From Bacteroidales bacterium (GTDB lineage Bacteria > Bacteroidota > Bacteroidia > Bacteroidales > Tenuifilaceae), in NCBI GenBank assembly GCA_018056955.1, contig JAGPEQ010000002.1, forward strand, positions 20,181 to 84,180: a DNA stretch of 64,000 bases, written 5' to 3'. The translations under genes were made by a program, and so were the position numbers. The notes below the pieces were generated by a model that did no database searches, was not told the origin of the DNA, and worked only from the letters and a program-made list of their open reading frames with translations. Shown here piece after piece: positions 22,538-33,879 of the stretch. Within the stretch, counting starts at the first letter, position 1; every line of letters starts with the position of its first letter.

Positions 22538-23632
<1,095 letters not shown>

Positions 23633-23676: not shown

Positions 23677-24186
23677 TTACTCGGTCTTTTTTGTACTAAT
23701 ACTTTTTACCTCGTTGGGGTTTAATGTCTTTTGAATAAACTTATGGCGAACCTCTCCTGTAGCAGTATTATATTCAATCTTTCTTCCCTGGTTACCACCT
23801 ACACTTTTAGCTATTATTGGTATTCCATGTTCAGCCAATAGTTCTAAAGCAATAGCAATGTTACGTTGACCGATATGGAAGTTGTCCAGATTTGTTTCAA
23901 GCACCTCGCCTCCCCCAAATACCTTGGCCTTAAGGTTTTCCTTTTTTGAGCCAAGTGAAATCATTCTTTCAATCAATCGTTCAATGGCAATGTTACCATA
24001 CCTTGGGCTTGCAAGCCCCTGTCCATTCCACAATGGCAACATGTAATGATTAATTCCACCTTGATTTAATACCGAATCGTATAGGCATACTGCCACACAT
24101 GAGCCCAGAATTGTAGTAACAACATGAGGCTCCTTATCGGCAAATAGCGATGCAGGGTATAGGTAATGTGACTTAAAGTGGTCCAT
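23677..24186 (-). CDS. cheD: chemoreceptor glutamine deamidase
   Basis: About 169 residues from the ATG at 24186 (a TTG precedes it). The catalytic Cys lies in TILGSCVAVCLYD and the His in GGINHYMLP, with the conserved KVFGGGEVL and IGQRNI motifs. CheD deamidates receptor glutamines; in many bacteria it is paired with the phosphatase CheC, which is absent here. The C-terminal tail is Lys-rich and not conserved. It is 9 bases from the kinase-like gene upstream. Confidence 0.95.
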   Translation of the reverse strand: MDHFKSHYLYPASLFADKEPHVVTTILGSCVAVCLYDSVLNQGGINHYMLPLWNGQGLASPRYGNIAIERLIERMISLGSKKENLKAKVFGGGEVLETNLDNFHIGQRNIAIALELLAEHGIPIIAKSVGGNQGRKIEYNTATGEVRHKFIQKTLNPNEVKSISTKKTE

Positions 24187-24195
24187 CAACCGGCT

Positions 24196-25107
24196 TTAAA
24201 AAATTTCTGCATCCTGATCAAAAAACATCTCGTTAGCATCGGTGGCTAAATCGTCAACGTCAACATTGGGCTCGGGTATTGAAATTGTGAAGCAAGCGCC
24301 TTTGCCAAGTTCGCTCTCAATTTCAATGCTACCATTGAGCATATCAATAATAGCCCTATTTACCGATAGTCCTAAACCATGCCCTCGGTTCAATGAATTT
24401 ATTCCTGTGTCGAGCCTTTTAAACCTATCAAAAATAATTTTGTGGTTTTCCTGAGAGATACCAATGCCATGATCCCTAACACAAATCGTTAGCTTGTTAA
24501 CGCCTCTACTGGTAATTATTTCAATTATGCCACCCTCAAAGCTAAAGTTTACTGCATTGCTGAGCAAATTTGCTATGATCAGCTTGAGCTTTTCAGGATC
24601 AGTTTTAAAAATTTTAGGATTAACCAAATTGGTGCTGGTATTAAAGGAGTACTCAACCTTTAGGTTCTTCTTGCGAAGTTCATACTTGAACGACTCAATA
24701 ACACTTTCGAGCAGGTTGTTAACATCAACCTGCATGATCTCGGGTTGTATTTCGCCAGCTTCAATCTTGGCAGCCACAAAGATATTCCGGAGCTGAAAAT
24801 CGAGGTTGAATGCTTCGGAATGAATTAGGGCCACCATGGAGATTACCTTTTTCCAGTTCTCCTTATCAACTGAGAGTATTGCCTTGGAAAGTCCTATTAT
24901 TGATGTAAAGGGGTTAATAATCTCATTGGTGATGTTTGAAATAAAGTGCGATTTTAGGGCTTCGGATTCCTCCAACTTCTTGTTTACCTGCTTCAACTCA
25001 GCATTCAGAACTTTTAGCTCATCGAGAGCTTTCTTGTTAAGTTCAAACCTGCGCTGGAGTTCAGCAAGCAGTTCGTTATCGGTTAATTCTTCAGGTTTTT
25101 TAGCCAT
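24196..25107 (-). CDS. histidine-kinase-like protein lacking the phosphoacceptor histidine
   Basis: A 303-residue soluble protein: a coiled coil (about 10-50), a DHp-like helix pair and a complete HATPase_c domain with N box (LSNAVNF), G1 (DHGIGIS), F box (FDRFKRL) and G2 (GHGLGLS). The H-box reads FISNITNEIINPF where kinases have S-H-E-[IL]; the histidine is N61. It therefore should bind ATP but cannot autophosphorylate in the usual way. It may act as a scaffold or an allosteric partner of CheA. It is embedded between cheR and cheD with 11- and 9-base gaps, so it is part of the operon. Confidence 0.88.
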   Translation of the reverse strand: MAKKPEELTDNELLAELQRRFELNKKALDELKVLNAELKQVNKKLEESEALKSHFISNITNEIINPFTSIIGLSKAILSVDKENWKKVISMVALIHSEAFNLDFQLRNIFVAAKIEAGEIQPEIMQVDVNNLLESVIESFKYELRKKNLKVEYSFNTSTNLVNPKIFKTDPEKLKLIIANLLSNAVNFSFEGGIIEIITSRGVNKLTICVRDHGIGISQENHKIIFDRFKRLDTGINSLNRGHGLGLSVNRAIIDMLNGSIEIESELGKGACFTISIPEPNVDVDDLATDANEMFFDQDAEIF

Positions 25108-25118
25108 AGTAGTAAGCT

Positions 25119-25973
25119 TTATACTTTCCGGTAAATAGTAGGTTTTAGCTGTTTAAGCGGGACATCCATGTTTAAAATCGATTCGGAATGCCCCAAAATT
25201 AGGTAGCCATTGGGTTTAATACGTTGGCACAGTTTATTAATAACGGCTTCCTGTGTGTTCCTATCAAAGTAAATAAGTACGTTTCGGCAAAAAACGACAT
25301 CGAACAAGTCCTTGGTATCGTAGCTGGAATCCATGAGGTTTAAGCGAGCAAAGGTTACCTTGGAGCGAACGTGAGGGGCAATTTTGATGGTTGGGTTTGC
25401 TCTATCCTTGCTCCTAAGCATGTATTTCCGCTTAAGGGTTAGTGGAATAGCCCCAACTTTTTCCTCCTTGTATATGGCATCAATTGCTGTTTGAAGAATT
25501 CGGGTAGAGATATCGGTAGCAAAAATGGAAAAATTAAAGCCAGGGTGTGTTTCAGCAAACTCGAAAAGCACCATGGCGAGGGTGTAGGGTTCTTCACCGC
25601 TTGAACAGCCTGCACTCCAAACCTTAAAAATACTCGACTTATTTGCCCCGTAATACGCCGGAAGTAATTCGGTTGTTAAAAACTCGAAATGGGCAGGCTC
25701 ACGGAAAAAATCAGTTTTGTTGGTGCTAACCACATCCAACATATGAATAATCTCGCTATCAAAGCCTTCGCGGCTGAAAAGATAGTCGAAGTAAGCCTTA
25801 AAAGAGGCAATGTTTAAATGTTTTAACCTTTTCTGGAGGCGGCATTGCAGCATTACCTTTTTTATAGGTGGAAGTTTAATGCCGCTCTCCTTGTAGATTA
25901 ATGCACTAAGCCGTTTAAACTCATCGTCGGTAAGCTGTAGCTTGTAGTAATCCACAAACTCATTAGCCTGCAT
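25119..25973 (-). CDS. cheR: chemotaxis protein methyltransferase
   Basis: A 284-residue CheR with the N-terminal helical domain and C-terminal SAM-binding domain. Motifs: NKTDFFREPAHFEFL, the SAM loop WSAGCSSGEEPYTLA, ATDIS, and FCRNVLIYFD, and the ending GHSESIL. It methylates glutamates of chemoreceptors. The start ATG at 25973 lies 11 bases after cheW. There is no C-terminal TPR extension. Confidence 0.96.
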   Translation of the reverse strand: MQANEFVDYYKLQLTDDEFKRLSALIYKESGIKLPPIKKVMLQCRLQKRLKHLNIASFKAYFDYLFSREGFDSEIIHMLDVVSTNKTDFFREPAHFEFLTTELLPAYYGANKSSIFKVWSAGCSSGEEPYTLAMVLFEFAETHPGFNFSIFATDISTRILQTAIDAIYKEEKVGAIPLTLKRKYMLRSKDRANPTIKIAPHVRSKVTFARLNLMDSSYDTKDLFDVVFCRNVLIYFDRNTQEAVINKLCQRIKPNGYLILGHSESILNMDVPLKQLKPTIYRKV

Positions 25974-25984
25974 ACAATATACCT

Positions 25985-26500
25985 TTACTGTTGTGCATCG
26001 GTTCCCTCGTCAAGTGACTGGTTGGAGTCAACAATGGAAGTAATCTCATCTACTGTGAAAATGGCATCCATGTTAAGAATAATGATAAAACGTTCATCAA
26101 CCTTTGCCATACCAATTATAAACTCGGACTTATACCGGCTACCTAGGGTTGGTAAAGGCATTATTTGGTTATTATCTATTTCCAGAACTGCTTGCACAGA
26201 ATCGACAATGGCACCAACATGCACCGATTCGCCATCAACGTCAATATCCAGAACAATGATACAGGTGTTGTTGGTGTATTCGGTTTCAGGCATTCCAAAC
26301 TTGATGCGTGTGTCAATTACGGGCAAAACAGCACCCCTTAGGTTAATAACGCCTTTCAGGTATTCAGGTGCCTTAGGAACCTTTGTTATTGGGGCCATCT
26401 CCAAGATATTCAACACCTTGCTGACATGTGCGGCAAACTCCTCGTTACCTAGCTTAAAGGTAAGGTATGATTTAATTTGATTTTTATTCTCGGTATCCAT
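25985..26500 (-). CDS. cheW: chemotaxis coupling protein
   Basis: A 171-residue single CheW domain: FKLGNEEFAAHVSKVLNILEM, KVPKAPEYLKGVINLRGAVLPVIDTR, and the later IIVLDIDV strand. It joins CheA to receptors in the cytoplasm. The tail after residue 150 is acidic and Gln-rich. It starts 19 bases after cheA. Confidence 0.95.
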   Translation of the reverse strand: MDTENKNQIKSYLTFKLGNEEFAAHVSKVLNILEMAPITKVPKAPEYLKGVINLRGAVLPVIDTRIKFGMPETEYTNNTCIIVLDIDVDGESVHVGAIVDSVQAVLEIDNNQIMPLPTLGSRYKSEFIIGMAKVDERFIIILNMDAIFTVDEITSIVDSNQSLDEGTDAQQ

Positions 26501-26519: not shown

Positions 26520-28547
26520 TTACTTACTTGTTGCAAACATTTTAATAATTTTATTGGTGTCCATTACTAGGGCAACTGTACCATCGCCTAGAATTGTTGC
26601 GCCTGAGAAAATGTCGTGACTCTTGTAGTGTTTCCCTAAAGGTTTCAGCACTGCCTGGTATTCCCCAATTACATAGTCAACCACTAGGCCAACCCGGTTA
26701 TCTTCAAAATTTACTACTACAACCTGTTCTAATTCCTCATTGCTTGGCTGGAGGTTAAACTCCTTCCGTAAGCTAAAGAATGGGATTTGAGTTCCATCAA
26801 GGGTTACAAGATTGTTGAAAGAGCTGTAGATACTTTCCTTGTCCACCGCATAAATCTTATCAATTGAAGAAAGAGGGATAACAAAGGGGGAACTATCAAT
26901 ACTAACCAGCAAACCATCGATAATTGAAAGGGTTAAGGGCAACTTTATGGTAATTGTTGTTCCCCTGCCAACTTCCGATTCAACCTCAACCTCGCCTCTG
27001 ATATCGGAAATTTTCTTTTTAACCACATCCATACCCACTCCCCTGCCCGATACATCGGTTACCTTTTTGGCTGTAGAGAATCCGGGCAAAAAGATAAGGT
27101 CAAGAATCTCCTTCTTGCTCATCTTTTTATCGGAAGGTACTAAACCCTTTGAGATTGCCTTGGCATGTATGATCTCAGGATCAATACCAGCACCATCATC
27201 GCTAACCTGGATTATTACACTTGCCCCGGAGTAGAATGCTTTCAGGTGAATTTTTCCCTTTGCCGGCTTTCCGTTTGCAATACGAACCCGAGTATCCTCA
27301 ATTCCATGATCCATGCTGTTCCTGATAATGTGCATCAGGGGGTCGGACAGGTTTTCGATGATGGTCTTATCAAGCTCAGTATCGGCTCCCTCTACAATGA
27401 AATCGACCTCCTTGTGCAGTTCAGACGATAAATCCCTGACAAGCCTCTGAAAACGACCAAAAAGGTTCTCAATAGGTATCAGAACGATACTAAAGGCAAT
27501 ATCGCGAAGCTGGCGGGTTAGCTTGTGAACGTTTTCAACTATAGGCGCCAAACCTGGCACATTGGTTTGCTCTGCAAATAAGCTTAAACGGGCTTGTGTG
27601 GTTACTAGCTCTGACACAAGGTTCATTAGGTGGTCAAGCTTGTCGGACGACACGCGAATGCTTGCAGCCGTTTTGTCCTTTGTGGCTATTCGCTCTTTAG
27701 TGAACTGTTTGGCCTTTTCCTTATTGATTCGAGCAGCAGCTTTTGTTGCCAGGCGTTGTATGGTTACCAATCCAACATCCTTCTGAACCTCTGCCAATTG
27801 CGATACTTCTTCAACAAATAATTTGTCGGCTAGCAAGTTTTCCTCTGCCAGCTTTTGTATTTCAAGCTTTGAATCGGTTTCAACAAAGATGAACACATCA
27901 TGAATGGCATTTACATCCTGGTCGGTTGTCAGCAACACTTCCCAGTAGGTATAGCAAAGGTTTGGGATAATTTCCTTTATTCCAGGCAGCCTGTTGAAAT
28001 GGGCGAAAACCTTATGCTCGCCCAACGAGCAAAGCTCATCAAGAAGGTACAGTGGGTTTGTTCCGTTCTTAAAAATATCCTCGTTCGGTTCAAAAAGAAT
28101 GTAGTAAGTAGATAGTGGTTCTGATTTTTCCTTAGTAGTTCCGGCAGTTTCGGTTGCGGTTTCAGCGTTACCAGGGTTAATTATACTATTAATTTTCCCC
28201 ATTAAGCCATTGTGAACCGTTTTAAAATCGGGATCCTCATAGTTTTGCTCATCGAGCATCGCCTTGAGGTGATCCACCGACGAAAAGGTTATGTTCAATA
28301 TATCCTTGCTTACCTCGAGCTGTCCATTGCGAATCATGTCGTAAATGGTCTCAAGGTTGTGCGTAAAGCTATCGATAAGGTCAAACCCAAACATGGCGCT
28401 GTTACCCTTAAGGGTGTGCATCACCCTAAAAACCTGTTGAATCAGAGCCTCATCGTTAGGGCTTTTTTCAAGCTCTAAAAGCGACACTTCAAGCTTATCA
28501 ATAAGCTCCGCAGCTTCCTCTATAAACTTTTTCCTAAAGCTATCCAT
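26520..28547 (-). CDS. cheA: chemotaxis histidine kinase
   Basis: A 675-residue CheA. P1 (Hpt) has phosphoacceptor H44 in RVMHTLKGNSAMFGF. A P2-like domain (about 145-240) follows, of the type with a YILFEP start and DVFIFVE end, then the P3 dimerisation helices (SSDKLDHLMNLVSELVTT), the P4 ATPase (RNSMDHGIED, DDGAGID, GRGVGMDVVKKKI) and a C-terminal CheW-like P5. All kinase residues seem intact. The ATG overlaps the cheY stop by one base (TAATG), so the two are coupled. It is the only clearly functional kinase in the operon. Confidence 0.97.
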   Translation of the reverse strand: MDSFRKKFIEEAAELIDKLEVSLLELEKSPNDEALIQQVFRVMHTLKGNSAMFGFDLIDSFTHNLETIYDMIRNGQLEVSKDILNITFSSVDHLKAMLDEQNYEDPDFKTVHNGLMGKINSIINPGNAETATETAGTTKEKSEPLSTYYILFEPNEDIFKNGTNPLYLLDELCSLGEHKVFAHFNRLPGIKEIIPNLCYTYWEVLLTTDQDVNAIHDVFIFVETDSKLEIQKLAEENLLADKLFVEEVSQLAEVQKDVGLVTIQRLATKAAARINKEKAKQFTKERIATKDKTAASIRVSSDKLDHLMNLVSELVTTQARLSLFAEQTNVPGLAPIVENVHKLTRQLRDIAFSIVLIPIENLFGRFQRLVRDLSSELHKEVDFIVEGADTELDKTIIENLSDPLMHIIRNSMDHGIEDTRVRIANGKPAKGKIHLKAFYSGASVIIQVSDDGAGIDPEIIHAKAISKGLVPSDKKMSKKEILDLIFLPGFSTAKKVTDVSGRGVGMDVVKKKISDIRGEVEVESEVGRGTTITIKLPLTLSIIDGLLVSIDSSPFVIPLSSIDKIYAVDKESIYSSFNNLVTLDGTQIPFFSLRKEFNLQPSNEELEQVVVVNFEDNRVGLVVDYVIGEYQAVLKPLGKHYKSHDIFSGATILGDGTVALVMDTNKIIKMFATSK

Positions 28548-28912
28548 TACCTAATCACTTTATTGATTGCCGAAATCAGTTTAGCTGGAACAAACGGTTT
28601 AATAATCCACCCCGTAGCACCGGCATCTTTAGCTTCCATTTTTTTTGAGGTTTGCGATTCGGTAGTCAGGAATAGGATTGGAATGCGTTCGTACTCCGGC
28701 ATTGCCCTAATATGCTTAATAAGCTCTATGCCATCCATTTCAGGCATATGAAGATCGGTGATTACCAAATCGATTGTTTTACCGTCAAGGTGTTTTAAGG
28801 CATCTTTGCCATCAACACCAACAAGCACATTGTACCCTTCGTTCTCAAGGGTAAATCGAACAACTTCGCGAATACTATCGGAATCGTCTACAATTAGTAT
28901 TGTTTTTGCCAT
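28547..28912 (-). CDS. cheY: single-domain response regulator, CheY type
   Basis: A 121-residue receiver with acidic pair D9-D10, phosphoacceptor D53 (ITDLHMPEMDG), a Thr in the FLTTES strand and the conserved Lys in IIKPF. No output domain. Translationally coupled to cheA, so it is the likely direct phosphate acceptor. The output target is unknown; no flagellar motor genes are seen. Confidence 0.94.
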   Translation of the reverse strand: MAKTILIVDDSDSIREVVRFTLENEGYNVLVGVDGKDALKHLDGKTIDLVITDLHMPEMDGIELIKHIRAMPEYERIPILFLTTESQTSKKMEAKDAGATGWIIKPFVPAKLISAINKVIR

Positions 28913-28933: not shown

Positions 28934-29242
28934 TTAATATTCTGATTTTATACCTGATCGTTCAAGAATTGTGCTCTGGTCAGCAGTTAATTCAAACTTA
29001 ACTGTCGATTTTATACCTCGTTCCTTCATGGAGAAGTTAAAAGAGCGTACGAGTTGTATAAAGCCAAGGTCAATTACCTCAGCGTTTTTAATTAGCAAGT
29101 CAGTAGGTTTAGCCTCATTAAATAGCTTAATCAGTTCACTCTTGATATCACTGATATTATTAAGGCTTAAATCGCCACTCAGGACGACCAGCGATGAACC
29201 CTTCTGCCTTTCGATGGAAAATTTTTTTTCTTTCTTTGACAT
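28934..29242 (-). CDS. STAS-domain protein with a leucine in place of the usual serine
   Basis: About 102 residues from the ATG at 29242, 13 bases after the upstream stop codon; longer frames would overlap that gene. It folds as a single STAS domain (VVLSGDLSLNNISDIKSEL, then VIDLGFIQLVRSF). The position normally Ser/Thr after the conserved Asp (D58) is L59, so it should not be switched by phosphorylation in the anti-sigma-factor antagonist manner. STAS proteins of this kind are found in some Che operons, with unclear roles. Confidence 0.82.
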   Translation of the reverse strand: MSKKEKKFSIERQKGSSLVVLSGDLSLNNISDIKSELIKLFNEAKPTDLLIKNAEVIDLGFIQLVRSFNFSMKERGIKSTVKFELTADQSTILERSGIKSEY

Positions 29243-29255
29243 ATTCTTGGTTTGT

Positions 29256-30989
29256 TTAAAAGAACTCAATGTTTGACTCATCCTGATCGGTTTCTGATAA
29301 GTCATCGAAACCCGCATTCCCTTTAATTACCATGTTGTGTATCTTATGTTCCGATTCCATGGTATATAGTCTTCGCATAAACTCCAAATCATCTCTATCG
29401 AACTGGCTCTCCTCCTTGCCAGTTAACGTGGAATATATGTGGTTTAGTAGTTTTATTACCTCAAGAATTTTAAGCTCAAAAACTTCATAGTACTTAACCT
29501 GGTTTACAGCCCTATGGATTATTTCACCTAAATCATTACTAGCCTGAAGCTTTTCCCGGAGTAAAACGCTTACCTTATCGTCACATTCAAGCAGGTTGCT
29601 AGCAATCTCCTTAAGGGTTGTTGGAATTGACTCCCACTCCTGCGATTTAGTATTTTCTGAAATTAACTCCGATAATCGCTCAATATCAGTTATTTTGGAT
29701 TCAAGGTGCATGTATAGTGTGCCAATTTGGTTTCGGGAGGTAATGATGTCAAAAGTAACTGTTTCAATCTGTTGAATTAGGTTCGATTGAAGCATTAACT
29801 CCGGCTGCTTTATTCTTTTTAGCAACAACTCACCGAATCGGTTGGCCTCATCATCAACAGCAGAGGTTTCAACCATTAAGCTAACGTTATGCCTAATTGA
29901 TTGAAGCAAATTGTTTACCCTAGCCAGTAAGGAAAGGTATTTGCTAACAGGTAGCGTAGTATTGGTAAGCTTATGCGCAACGCTTGTAAAAGGTTGCTCA
30001 GAATCCGATTCTTGTATTTTTTTTAAATCCCTGCATTGGTTCAATATGTTTTGCGCAATGCTTCCAATGATCTTGAACTTATCGATTATCTGCTCAATGG
30101 CTCTTTGATACTCTTTGTTTGCCCTAACCAGTAATGCCGACTGAATGTTAACAAACTCTGCTATCTGATTTAAATAGTTTTTCTGCTCGCTTTCATCTTC
30201 AGAGGAGAGGTTGTTTAGTATTTCCTTATGCGCTACCTGTACGTGTTCAATTTTTTGGCGAATAATATCGTGGTACTGGAGGTTTGTAATAATGCTGTCA
30301 ATTGAATCGCGAAGTTTTGCGTTATTTTCTTGCAGTTTTGGTATATTGAGGCTAAGGTCTTGCTGTTTTTCCGAAAAAATTTGAATGGATTCATTAATAA
30401 TATCAATGGCAATCCCTATTTGTTGGTTGGCATTTCGCATGTTCTTTTTAACCCTATCAACACCTTCGCGCAAAAGTTTCATGTTGCCATGGAGCGACTT
30501 AGCAAGCTCAAGTTCAGCTAGCTTTGACTTGTTTACTAACCTGTTAAACTCAATAAAAAGTTCATCCTTTTCCTCGGTAACTTCATCTGAGTGGGACTCA
30601 ATGCCTGTTATTTTAAGGTTAGCTAGTAAAAACTTTAGGGTTAGGAGGTTTTGGTTAATGTTTTTGCTATGTAGGTCAATGGAATCGAGAATATCATAAA
30701 CCTCATCAATGCTTTTAACAATGGAATCGGCGTATTTATTGGTTTCTTTTTTAGCCTGACTGAACTTTTTTAAAAGGAGCCTGAGGTTCAGCAACGATTC
30801 ACTAGTATAGCTGGAAGCATATACGGCAAACACCTCTTCAGCATTTGCTGATATTGAGGTTGACTTTGAGTATGCTTCCTTGAACCTTTCGTTAAGACCT
30901 AAAAAATCCTCAGCGGCGCAATTTAGTATCTCAACTATAAGACTATCAATTACGGCAAACTGTTCAGATATCTCCTTGATTTTTATCAT
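29256..30989 (-). CDS. 577-residue helical protein with a CheZ-like DxxxQ motif
   Basis: The protein is almost wholly alpha-helical with heptad-like patterns and no membrane segment or signal peptide. At 236-250 it reads TNLQYHDIIRQKIEHV, with D241 and Q245 spaced like the catalytic Asp and Gln of CheZ (QDLTGQ). A weaker copy at about 496-511 (VKYYEVFELKILEV) keeps an acidic residue but not the Gln, suggesting an internal duplication. The tail (LYTMESEHKIHN, then an acidic stretch ending in FF) could dock a receiver. The operon has no CheC, CheX or canonical CheZ, so this is my candidate CheY-P phosphatase. It could instead be a cytosolic receptor-like scaffold; there is no MCP hairpin tip. 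Confidence 0.6.
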   Translation of the reverse strand: MIKIKEISEQFAVIDSLIVEILNCAAEDFLGLNERFKEAYSKSTSISANAEEVFAVYASSYTSESLLNLRLLLKKFSQAKKETNKYADSIVKSIDEVYDILDSIDLHSKNINQNLLTLKFLLANLKITGIESHSDEVTEEKDELFIEFNRLVNKSKLAELELAKSLHGNMKLLREGVDRVKKNMRNANQQIGIAIDIINESIQIFSEKQQDLSLNIPKLQENNAKLRDSIDSIITNLQYHDIIRQKIEHVQVAHKEILNNLSSEDESEQKNYLNQIAEFVNIQSALLVRANKEYQRAIEQIIDKFKIIGSIAQNILNQCRDLKKIQESDSEQPFTSVAHKLTNTTLPVSKYLSLLARVNNLLQSIRHNVSLMVETSAVDDEANRFGELLLKRIKQPELMLQSNLIQQIETVTFDIITSRNQIGTLYMHLESKITDIERLSELISENTKSQEWESIPTTLKEIASNLLECDDKVSVLLREKLQASNDLGEIIHRAVNQVKYYEVFELKILEVIKLLNHIYSTLTGKEESQFDRDDLEFMRRLYTMESEHKIHNMVIKGNAGFDDLSETDQDESNIEFF

Positions 30990-31000
30990 AACAATTTATA

Positions 31001-31378
31001 TTACACCCCAGCTAAAACCTCTTTCACCCTCTTAACCAGTAATGGTATATCAACTGGCTTTGGAAAGAATTCCTGTACTCCTAGCACTTCGCATTGATTA
31101 CGGTAAAACTCAGTATTAGCAGCGGTTACTATGAAAACTGGAATGGTATTTACTCGCTCACTCTGCTTGATGGTTTTAAGAAAATCTATTCCGGTAACAT
31201 TAGGCATAAGTAAATCCAAGAGAATTAGGCTTGGTGGTTCTTTATCAATCAGCCTATAGGCGTCAGCGGCATGGCTTACTGTTACCACCCTAATTCCCTC
31301 TTCGCCAAGCAGAGCTTCCACAAGTACCTGATTCGTAACCGAATCGTCAATTACTAGAACATAGCCTTTAAAATCCAT
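31001..31378 (-). CDS. single-domain response regulator, first gene of the Che operon
   Basis: A 125-residue receiver domain with acidic pair D11-D12, phosphoacceptor D55 (LLDLLMPNVTG), Thr in FIVTAAN and Lys in FPKPV. It is clearly distinct from the cheY at 28547. It starts just after a well-formed promoter and is followed 11 bases later by the 577-residue gene, so it may be the substrate of that protein. Two separate receivers in one operon suggest one output and one phosphate sink. Confidence 0.9.
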   Translation of the reverse strand: MDFKGYVLVIDDSVTNQVLVEALLGEEGIRVVTVSHAADAYRLIDKEPPSLILLDLLMPNVTGIDFLKTIKQSERVNTIPVFIVTAANTEFYRNQCEVLGVQEFFPKPVDIPLLVKRVKEVLAGV

Positions 31379-32685: not shown

Positions 32686-33879
32686 ATGGACAGGTCAATT
32701 CTGGCAGAGCTAATTCGCAAAAACAAACGACTAATAATACCCAACGTGGGTGCCTTCCTTCATCGTGATACTGTAAGCAACAACCAGCTTAGCATTACTT
32801 TTAGCCCATTCCTAAAGTATAACGATGGGCAACTCGAAGAATTACTGATAAGTAATTATGGACTTTCAAAGATTGAGGCAGCCGACCAAATAAAAAAGCT
32901 ATCGATAGAAATTATTGAAGAAATAAAAGAAAGTGGTTCATACTCAATACCCGGTATCGGAATACTAATAAATGATTCAAAGGGTTCCATTAACTTGACA
33001 TCGGAGGAATCATCAAGCCAAAGAAAGTCAACCGACCATGACGATGGTAAAAATATTCAAACCACCAACATCGATCCCCCCCTCGAGGTAGACGCGAGTA
33101 CCGGTGACAAAAACCAAACCACCAATGATTTAGCTGTAAAAGAAGAGAAAGTTCAAGAAGAGAACACTATTACAAAACATTACACTGAGGTTAGCCCTGG
33201 GGTTGAGCGTGTTAACACCAATGCCCTCGACAGCATAATAGTTGAAAAGACGTCAACGGATAATAGCAATAATAGCAATCAATTTGAATACAATGATTTG
33301 GAACAAGTCAACATGAAAAGTTCTAGTAAAAAAAAGCCATCATCGCCCCTGCGAGTTTTTGTTTTTATAGCAGTGTCGCTGTTTGTAATACTTACATTTG
33401 CATTCATTTTAAGGGAGTTGGCCTTTGCCCCTGATGAAGCCGACTGGGAAAACATTAAAAACAAACCGGAAAAGGTAGAACCTATTAAGTTACCAACCGA
33501 TTATACTTCAAAATCCGATGATTTTGATAAGAAATTTGAAGCCACAAACCCTGCCGACGAGGAGAGCGAAACCGTTACAGGTAATGAGCAACCATCACAA
33601 ACAACGGAAGAAGTAATTGAAACATCATTAACCCAAAGTACTCCAGTTGGCAACCCATCAACAATTTACAGCCTTGTGGTTGGAAGTTTTGCCGAAAAGG
33701 CAAATGCCCAAAAATTCGTAAACGATCTTAAGGCAAAGGGGTTTAGCGCTGAGGTTTATAGCAAACCTAACGGAAAGCATCTTGCTGTAATTGGCCGATA
33801 TAGTAAAAAAGACGAAGCCAATCAACAGAAGGAAAAGCTCAAGAACCAATTTCAGGGAATATGGATTATTAGCCGATAG
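32686..33879 (+). CDS. HU-like domain and SPOR domain membrane protein
   Basis: A 397-residue protein. Residues 1-105 form a divergent HU-type fold of the kind seen in Bacteroidota and related to CCDC81 (LIRKNKRLIIPNVGAFL, FSPFLKYNDGQL). A Ser/Asn/Glu-rich linker leads to one membrane helix (about 223-243), a periplasmic linker and a C-terminal SPOR domain (about 325-397: YSLVVGSFAEKANAQKFVNDLKAKGF). SPOR domains bind denuded peptidoglycan at division sites. The topology puts the HU-like domain in the cytoplasm. A role linking septum and nucleoid is inference. Confidence 0.87.
   Translation: MDRSILAELIRKNKRLIIPNVGAFLHRDTVSNNQLSITFSPFLKYNDGQLEELLISNYGLSKIEAADQIKKLSIEIIEEIKESGSYSIPGIGILINDSKGSINLTSEESSSQRKSTDHDDGKNIQTTNIDPPLEVDASTGDKNQTTNDLAVKEEKVQEENTITKHYTEVSPGVERVNTNALDSIIVEKTSTDNSNNSNQFEYNDLEQVNMKSSSKKKPSSPLRVFVFIAVSLFVILTFAFILRELAFAPDEADWENIKNKPEKVEPIKLPTDYTSKSDDFDKKFEATNPADEESETVTGNEQPSQTTEEVIETSLTQSTPVGNPSTIYSLVVGSFAEKANAQKFVNDLKAKGFSAEVYSKPNGKHLAVIGRYSKKDEANQQKEKLKNQFQGIWIISR

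Follow-up and report, generated by a model that had tools for sequence, protein, structure and literature searches.

Known CheY-P phosphatases and the organization of the locus

In E. coli CheZ the residues D143 and Q147 are catalytic; D143 holds the lysine of the receiver and Q147 places the attacking water. CheZ is a protein of about 210 amino acids whose four-helix bundle is made by a dimer of two hairpins, and it binds CheY through a C-terminal helix, VDDLLxxLGF. CheC, CheX and FliY have the same presumed job as the protein described here, hydrolysis of CheY-P by an acid-amide pair, but their fold is unrelated to it and their motif is ExxN.

The window (the whole stretch of 64,000 nucleotides of Bacteroidales DNA that was analysed) contains a chemosensory operon whose genes, in the order of transcription, are the following:

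31001..31378, minus strand: REC1, a stand-alone response regulator (Pfam Response_reg) with a conserved Asp55
29256..30989, minus strand: Z577, a predicted all-helical protein of 577 amino acids (ATG at 30989, stop at 29256), the proposed receptor-derived CheY-P phosphatase
28934..29242, minus strand: small STAS-like protein (the fold name is our own reading, with no Pfam match), usually found directly after Z577
28547..28912, minus strand: REC2 (CheY), with D9, D10, D53, T83 and K105 conserved (over 95%, 66 sequences)
26520..28547, minus strand: CheA (Pfam Hpt, H-kinase_dim, HATPase_c and CheW)
25985..26500, minus strand: CheW
25119..25973, minus strand: CheR
24196..25107, minus strand: histidine-kinase-like (HK-like) pseudokinase, with the acceptor His changed to Asn, ExxN retained and EIF at its end
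23677..24189, minus strand: CheD
22538..23632, minus strand: CheB

The open reading frame of 577 codons, which the original prediction had described without stating its strand, is genuine and lies on the minus strand; the opposite plus strand is packed with stop codons. The open reading frame listed for the STAS-like gene starts at 29317 and overlaps Z577, and an internal ATG near 29242 is the likelier start. Among relatives the gene order Z577-STAS-CheY-CheA-CheW-CheR-pseudoHK-CheD-CheB is kept. Divergent from the che operon, a gene at 32686-33879 on the plus strand encodes a single protein with a SPOR domain and an HU-CCDC81-like domain, the latter scoring below the Pfam cutoff. The operon has CheD and, as was claimed at the outset, no CheC, CheX or classical CheZ; the absence extends beyond the operon, as none of these three has a match above cutoff anywhere in the window's genome (assembly 93% complete).

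A strictly conserved DxxxQ helix

The phosphatase idea concerns the following features of Z577:

30240..30284, minus strand: catalytic-type helix, residues 236-250 (NLQYHDIIRQKIEHV), the most conserved segment of Z577
30267-30269, minus strand: codon of D241, inside helix 236-250
30255-30257, minus strand: codon of Q245, inside helix 236-250
29445..29510, minus strand: degenerate second copy (residues 494-515, YYEVFEL) of this helix, where E502 takes the place of D241 and L506 that of Q245

The string D241-I-I-R-Q245, which the original prediction had placed in a helix and compared in spacing with the catalytic pair of CheZ, is present and falls inside a long predicted helix, residues 135-261 of the AlphaFold2 model (block pLDDT about 71-82). 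Loss of D241 and Q245 among orthologues had been named as grounds for abandoning the proposal, and both residues are in fact kept. When 60 related genomes were searched with the whole protein, an approach free of motif bias, 26 gave a match, and D241 and Q245 are present in 24/24 of the homologues that span the helix. The invariant residues in an alignment of 25 sequences including the window protein (19-93% identity) are D241, I242, I243, Q245, Q238, K246 and H249. The other set, of 80 loci, is biased, since its retrieval relied in part on a pattern that includes the DxxxQ helix; together with the window protein it has both residues in 81/81, and once three distant homologues join, D241, Q245, Q238, I242 and H249 are found in 84/84. 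Z577 contains four [DE]xxxQ strings in all, and only the one at 241/245 is kept (81/81, against 0-6/81 for the other three). The best-conserved stretch of 15 residues in the protein begins at residue 233 and scores 0.91, where the mean is 0.43.

The same letters invite comparison with another group of proteins. H240-D241-x-x-x-Q245 reproduces the letters and spacing of the HisKA_3-type DHp domain (HDxxxQ, as in NarX), in which DxxxQ is the phosphatase motif (PMC3510030), and the Z577 helix might be derived from such a domain, with H240 a present or former phospho-acceptor. Among the 84 members, however, 64 have H at position 240, 18 have Q and 2 have S, and Z577 lacks an ATPase domain and any Pfam match to HisKA_3. 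We consider this origin very improbable and mostly refuted by the loss of H240.

Z577 used alone as query has no relative above cutoff in Pfam, NCBIfam, PHROGs or the PDB sequences, and a profile search of the PDB returned generic coiled coils and MCPs only. Weak Pfam CTD12/CTD11 matches were below cutoff and inconsistent among members, and were rejected. Foldseek and VIA-align searches with two Z577 models returned generic long-helix bundles (TTYH, ClyA-type and axonemal proteins) with CheZ not listed, and we regard them as uninformative and do not count them against a CheZ link. In a genome of the same genus (G002, a single contig; L007 / L027) an in-frame stop near residue 428 interrupts Z577, through either decay or sequencing error.

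Internal duplication

Family profiles of the N-terminal and C-terminal halves of Z577 align with one another (hhalign 68%, E 4.9e-5), whereas the reversed control gives 3.6% and none of 30 shuffles exceeds 1.5%. The repeat offset is 261 residues, which sets D241 opposite E502 and Q245 opposite L506; both AlphaFold2 models predict helix breaks at 130-134 and close to residue 393, a spacing that roughly equals this offset. Of the 84 members, 74 have D or E at position 502 and 10 have Q at position 506. Judged from its sequence, Z577 is an internal duplication from whose second copy the Gln has usually been lost, in agreement with the earlier interpretation of the degenerate copy near residues 496-511 as a duplicate with a decayed site. 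In at least six members the second copy retains both Asp and Gln (YYDFFEQ), and these proteins may carry two DxxxQ sites per chain.

Relationship to CheZ through bridging proteins

The Pfam CheZ model (PF04344) does not match the window protein, CheZ is absent among the families listed for 25 members, and the CheC and CheX family models have no match in Z577 either. Direct hhalign comparison of Z577 with eight classical CheZ sequences gives 0.4-0.6%, which is not significant, although a short-window CheZ comparison does pair D143 with D241 and Q147 with Q245. A profile of the helix region was used to search other Bacteroidota genomes, and this search led to proteins that bridge the two. Three of them are CheZ-sized (211-224 amino acids) and are encoded immediately adjoining cheY (L127, L129 and L131), and a fourth locus (L132) has two CheZ-like genes (1387-1992 and 2066-2806) in tandem just before cheA, both above the Pfam CheZ cutoff. 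The five bridging proteins score 25-35 bits against Pfam CheZ, and 3/5 exceed the cutoff of 30.7 bits.

The profile of the bridging proteins aligns with classical CheZ at 96.6% (hhalign, E 5.5e-10) and with Z577 at 93.9-96.1%, and in both cases the Asp and the Gln of the motif pair with their counterparts; the controls give at most 3.6% when reversed and at most 1.9% in 30 column shuffles. When the 10-residue motif is masked the match to Z577 falls to 2%, and the 34 columns around the motif, taken alone, still give 95.9%, so the link is a shared catalytic helix and not a whole domain. The profile comparison with CheZ that had been proposed as a check is therefore negative when made directly, and positive when made by way of the bridging proteins, on the catalytic helix only. 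These proteins have an LQ[FV]xDI[VT]xQ catalytic helix in common with Z577, but they are the size of CheZ and three of them end in an SQxDIDxLF-type tail.

Other features of Z577 recall CheZ as well: the DxxxQ pair is in a long helix, the gene is near cheY and cheA, the C-terminal residue is Phe, and the protein contains helical hairpins. In CheZ an AxxFQ motif directly precedes DxxxQ (PMC7750401). The Z577 family does not have AxxFQ, and most members have Nxx[YF][HQ] (Nxx[YF][HQ]D, compared with AxxFQD), so that the aromatic residue at -2 and the Q/H at -1 are retained but the Ala is not. On the other hand, Z577 has 577 amino acids with two repeats in one chain, it has MCP-like hairpins and no Pfam CheZ match, it occurs in a lineage that lacks flagellar switch genes, and it ends not in the CheY-binding helix of CheZ but in [DNE][VIL]E[FL]F. 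The duplicated hairpins of Z577 could form within a single chain the type of four-helix bundle that CheZ makes as a dimer. By the evidence of its sequence Z577 is outside the CheZ family if membership is set by the family model and the CheY-binding tail, and it nevertheless probably works as CheZ does.

Relationship to chemoreceptors

Two further segments of Z577 connect it with the methyl-accepting chemotaxis proteins (MCPs):

30570..30662, minus strand: tip of the repeat-1 hairpin (residues 110-140, NINQNLLTLKFLLANLKI), with a predicted turn at 130-134; aligns with an MCP-tip-like stretch of distant homologues
29790..29828, minus strand: tip of the repeat-2 hairpin (residues 388-400), which lines up with the MCP tip of L124-L126 (ELEIIALNARVKAARTGDNG in L124)

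Three distant full-length homologues (L124-L126) score 152-164 bits against the Z577 family model and 43-58 bits against MCPsignal, the latter above cutoff. They end in VELF or IELF and adjoin a CheY gene, and their MCP-like tips align with residues about 110-134 and 388-400 of Z577. In the window protein the tip is degenerate and the MCP signalling domain (PF00015) has no match above cutoff. Z577 is like an MCP in having a hairpin with (degenerate) tips and xxELF close to the C terminus, but it is duplicated, lacks both a transmembrane and a ligand domain, and retains little of the tip signature. Its scaffold looks like a duplicated, degenerate receptor hairpin. Two other proteins, L128 (1345-2721) and L130 (1342-2700), are MCPs encoded beside cheY that have an N-terminal hydrophobic stretch, the same DxxxQ helix in a C-terminal position and IELF close to the C terminus, and such receptors may carry their own CheY phosphatase.

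The MCPsignal matches of L124-L126, and a fold predicted to be an extended helical hairpin or bundle, are also what would be expected if Z577 were a cytoplasmic MCP-like receptor or array adaptor, whose helix contacts CheA, CheW or a receiver and whose DxxxQ spacing is coincidental. We think this improbable, as the MCP tip of Z577 is far more degraded than the DxxxQ helix, and the same helix is found beside cheY in CheZ-sized proteins that match Pfam CheZ and have no MCP part.

The C-terminal tail and the pseudokinase

The last residues of Z577 are conserved as well:

29259..29273, minus strand: pentapeptide NIEFF at the C terminus (residues 573-577), for which the family consensus is [DNE][VIL]E[FL]F

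Within this C terminus the E and F are present in 82/83 closed members. The acidic tail that had been suggested as a possible binding site for a receiver is present, as a low-confidence region of the model at about residues 545-577; a receiver-binding role for it is no more than possible. The kinase-like proteins of the operon end in AEIF, EETF, SETF and similar sequences, and two MCPs of the window's genome, L111 and L113, end in NYEKF and EYESF, respectively, so an E-x-F end is common to Z577, the kinase-like protein and MCPs, and the tail need not bind a receiver. The NYEKF and EYESF ends resemble CheR/CheB-binding pentapeptides in which Tyr replaces Trp. The NWETF-type CheR/CheB pentapeptide requires an aromatic residue at position 2 (PMC7390727). 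The tail of Z577 was rejected as an exact pentapeptide of this type; it keeps the Phe at position 5, and only two members have anything other than V, I or L at position 2. We infer that the E-x-F proteins may all dock to the same partner, which might be CheR or CheB.

The kinase-like protein bears on the argument in another way. The original prediction had reasoned that the operon is missing a phosphatase unless Z577 is it, and this overlooked the pseudokinase at 24196-25107, in which 34/34 sequences have Asn for the phospho-acceptor His, 34/34 retain the E and N of ExxN, and the HGLGL (ATP) box is largely intact. In HisKA kinases a conserved T/N residue is needed for phosphatase activity only (PMC3510030), and the pseudokinase may be a second, HisKA-type phosphatase candidate. 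It might even be the phosphatase of the operon, with Z577 acting as a receptor-like sensor or scaffold to which CheY-P binds without being hydrolysed. The loss of the His with retention of the ExxN and of the ATP-binding domain, the phosphatase-specific role of the T/N residue, and the E-x-F tail that the pseudokinase has in common with Z577 would all fit such an arrangement. It would, however, leave unexplained both that no residues of Z577 are kept more strictly than D241, Q245, Q238 and H249 and the existence of CheZ-like bridging proteins with the same helix, and the two proteins could both be phosphatases. We therefore regard a non-hydrolysing Z577 as unlikely, though less so than the adaptor discussed above.

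Occurrence in the Bacteroidales

We surveyed 295 Bacteroidales genomes, each at least 90% complete. CheA occurs in 77 of them (about a quarter) and Z577 in 45, and all 45 are among the 77 with CheA; none is among the 218 without it (Fisher 1.4e-32, a value that ignores shared ancestry). The remaining 32/77 CheA-bearing genomes do without Z577, so CheA is not invariably dependent on it. CheZ and FliM/FliN were found in none of the 295 and CheX in 2; with FliM/FliN absent, the output of CheY here cannot be the standard flagellar switch. At 17 loci, mostly of rumen and gut Bacteroidales, Z577 is encoded apart from the che operon. Five of these loci were checked, and their genomes encode CheA and CheW elsewhere; across six genomes in which Z577 is not beside cheA, both proteins are still encoded. 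We found neither a CheZ-MCP fusion nor a Bacteroidales CheY phosphatase in the open-access literature, which is not proof of absence.

A proposed function for Z577

Our preferred reading is that Z577 is a soluble CheY-P phosphatase in which a CheZ-type helix is carried on a duplicated MCP hairpin, and we give this a probability of about 0.7. The original proposal of a new CheY-P phosphatase thus gains from the conservation of the helix, the intermediates, the operon and the co-occurrence with CheA, and it receives nothing from a direct profile match to CheZ. By analogy with CheZ, D241 would hold the active-site lysine of the receiver (as D143 does) and Q245 would position the attacking water at the aspartyl phosphate (as Q147 does), and repeat 2 would serve as a structural copy that has usually lost its Gln. 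The likely substrate is REC2, the CheY encoded two genes downstream of Z577. Its E-x-F tail, together with the MCP-like hairpins, probably keeps Z577 at the CheA-CheW-receptor array, where CheY-P would be destroyed near its site of production. A fuller scheme is more tentative, and we put it at somewhat less than an even chance: Z577 would represent a new class of CheY-P phosphatase, a CheZ helix on a duplicated receptor hairpin in the array that serves the non-flagellar chemosensory systems of the Bacteroidales, and the pseudokinase, docking through the same C-terminal motif, would be a second phosphatase.

The CheA-bearing Bacteroidales genomes sampled have no flagellar-switch or CheZ matches and almost no CheX, which has left the end of the CheY signal unexplained in them. 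Z577 is a conserved candidate for this step, with two named catalytic residues that make it testable in vitro. If the reading is correct, the active-site helix of CheZ is found on different scaffolds, chemoreceptors included, which bears on the origin of CheZ, and Z577 would provide a handle on what CheY controls in the bacteria that carry it.
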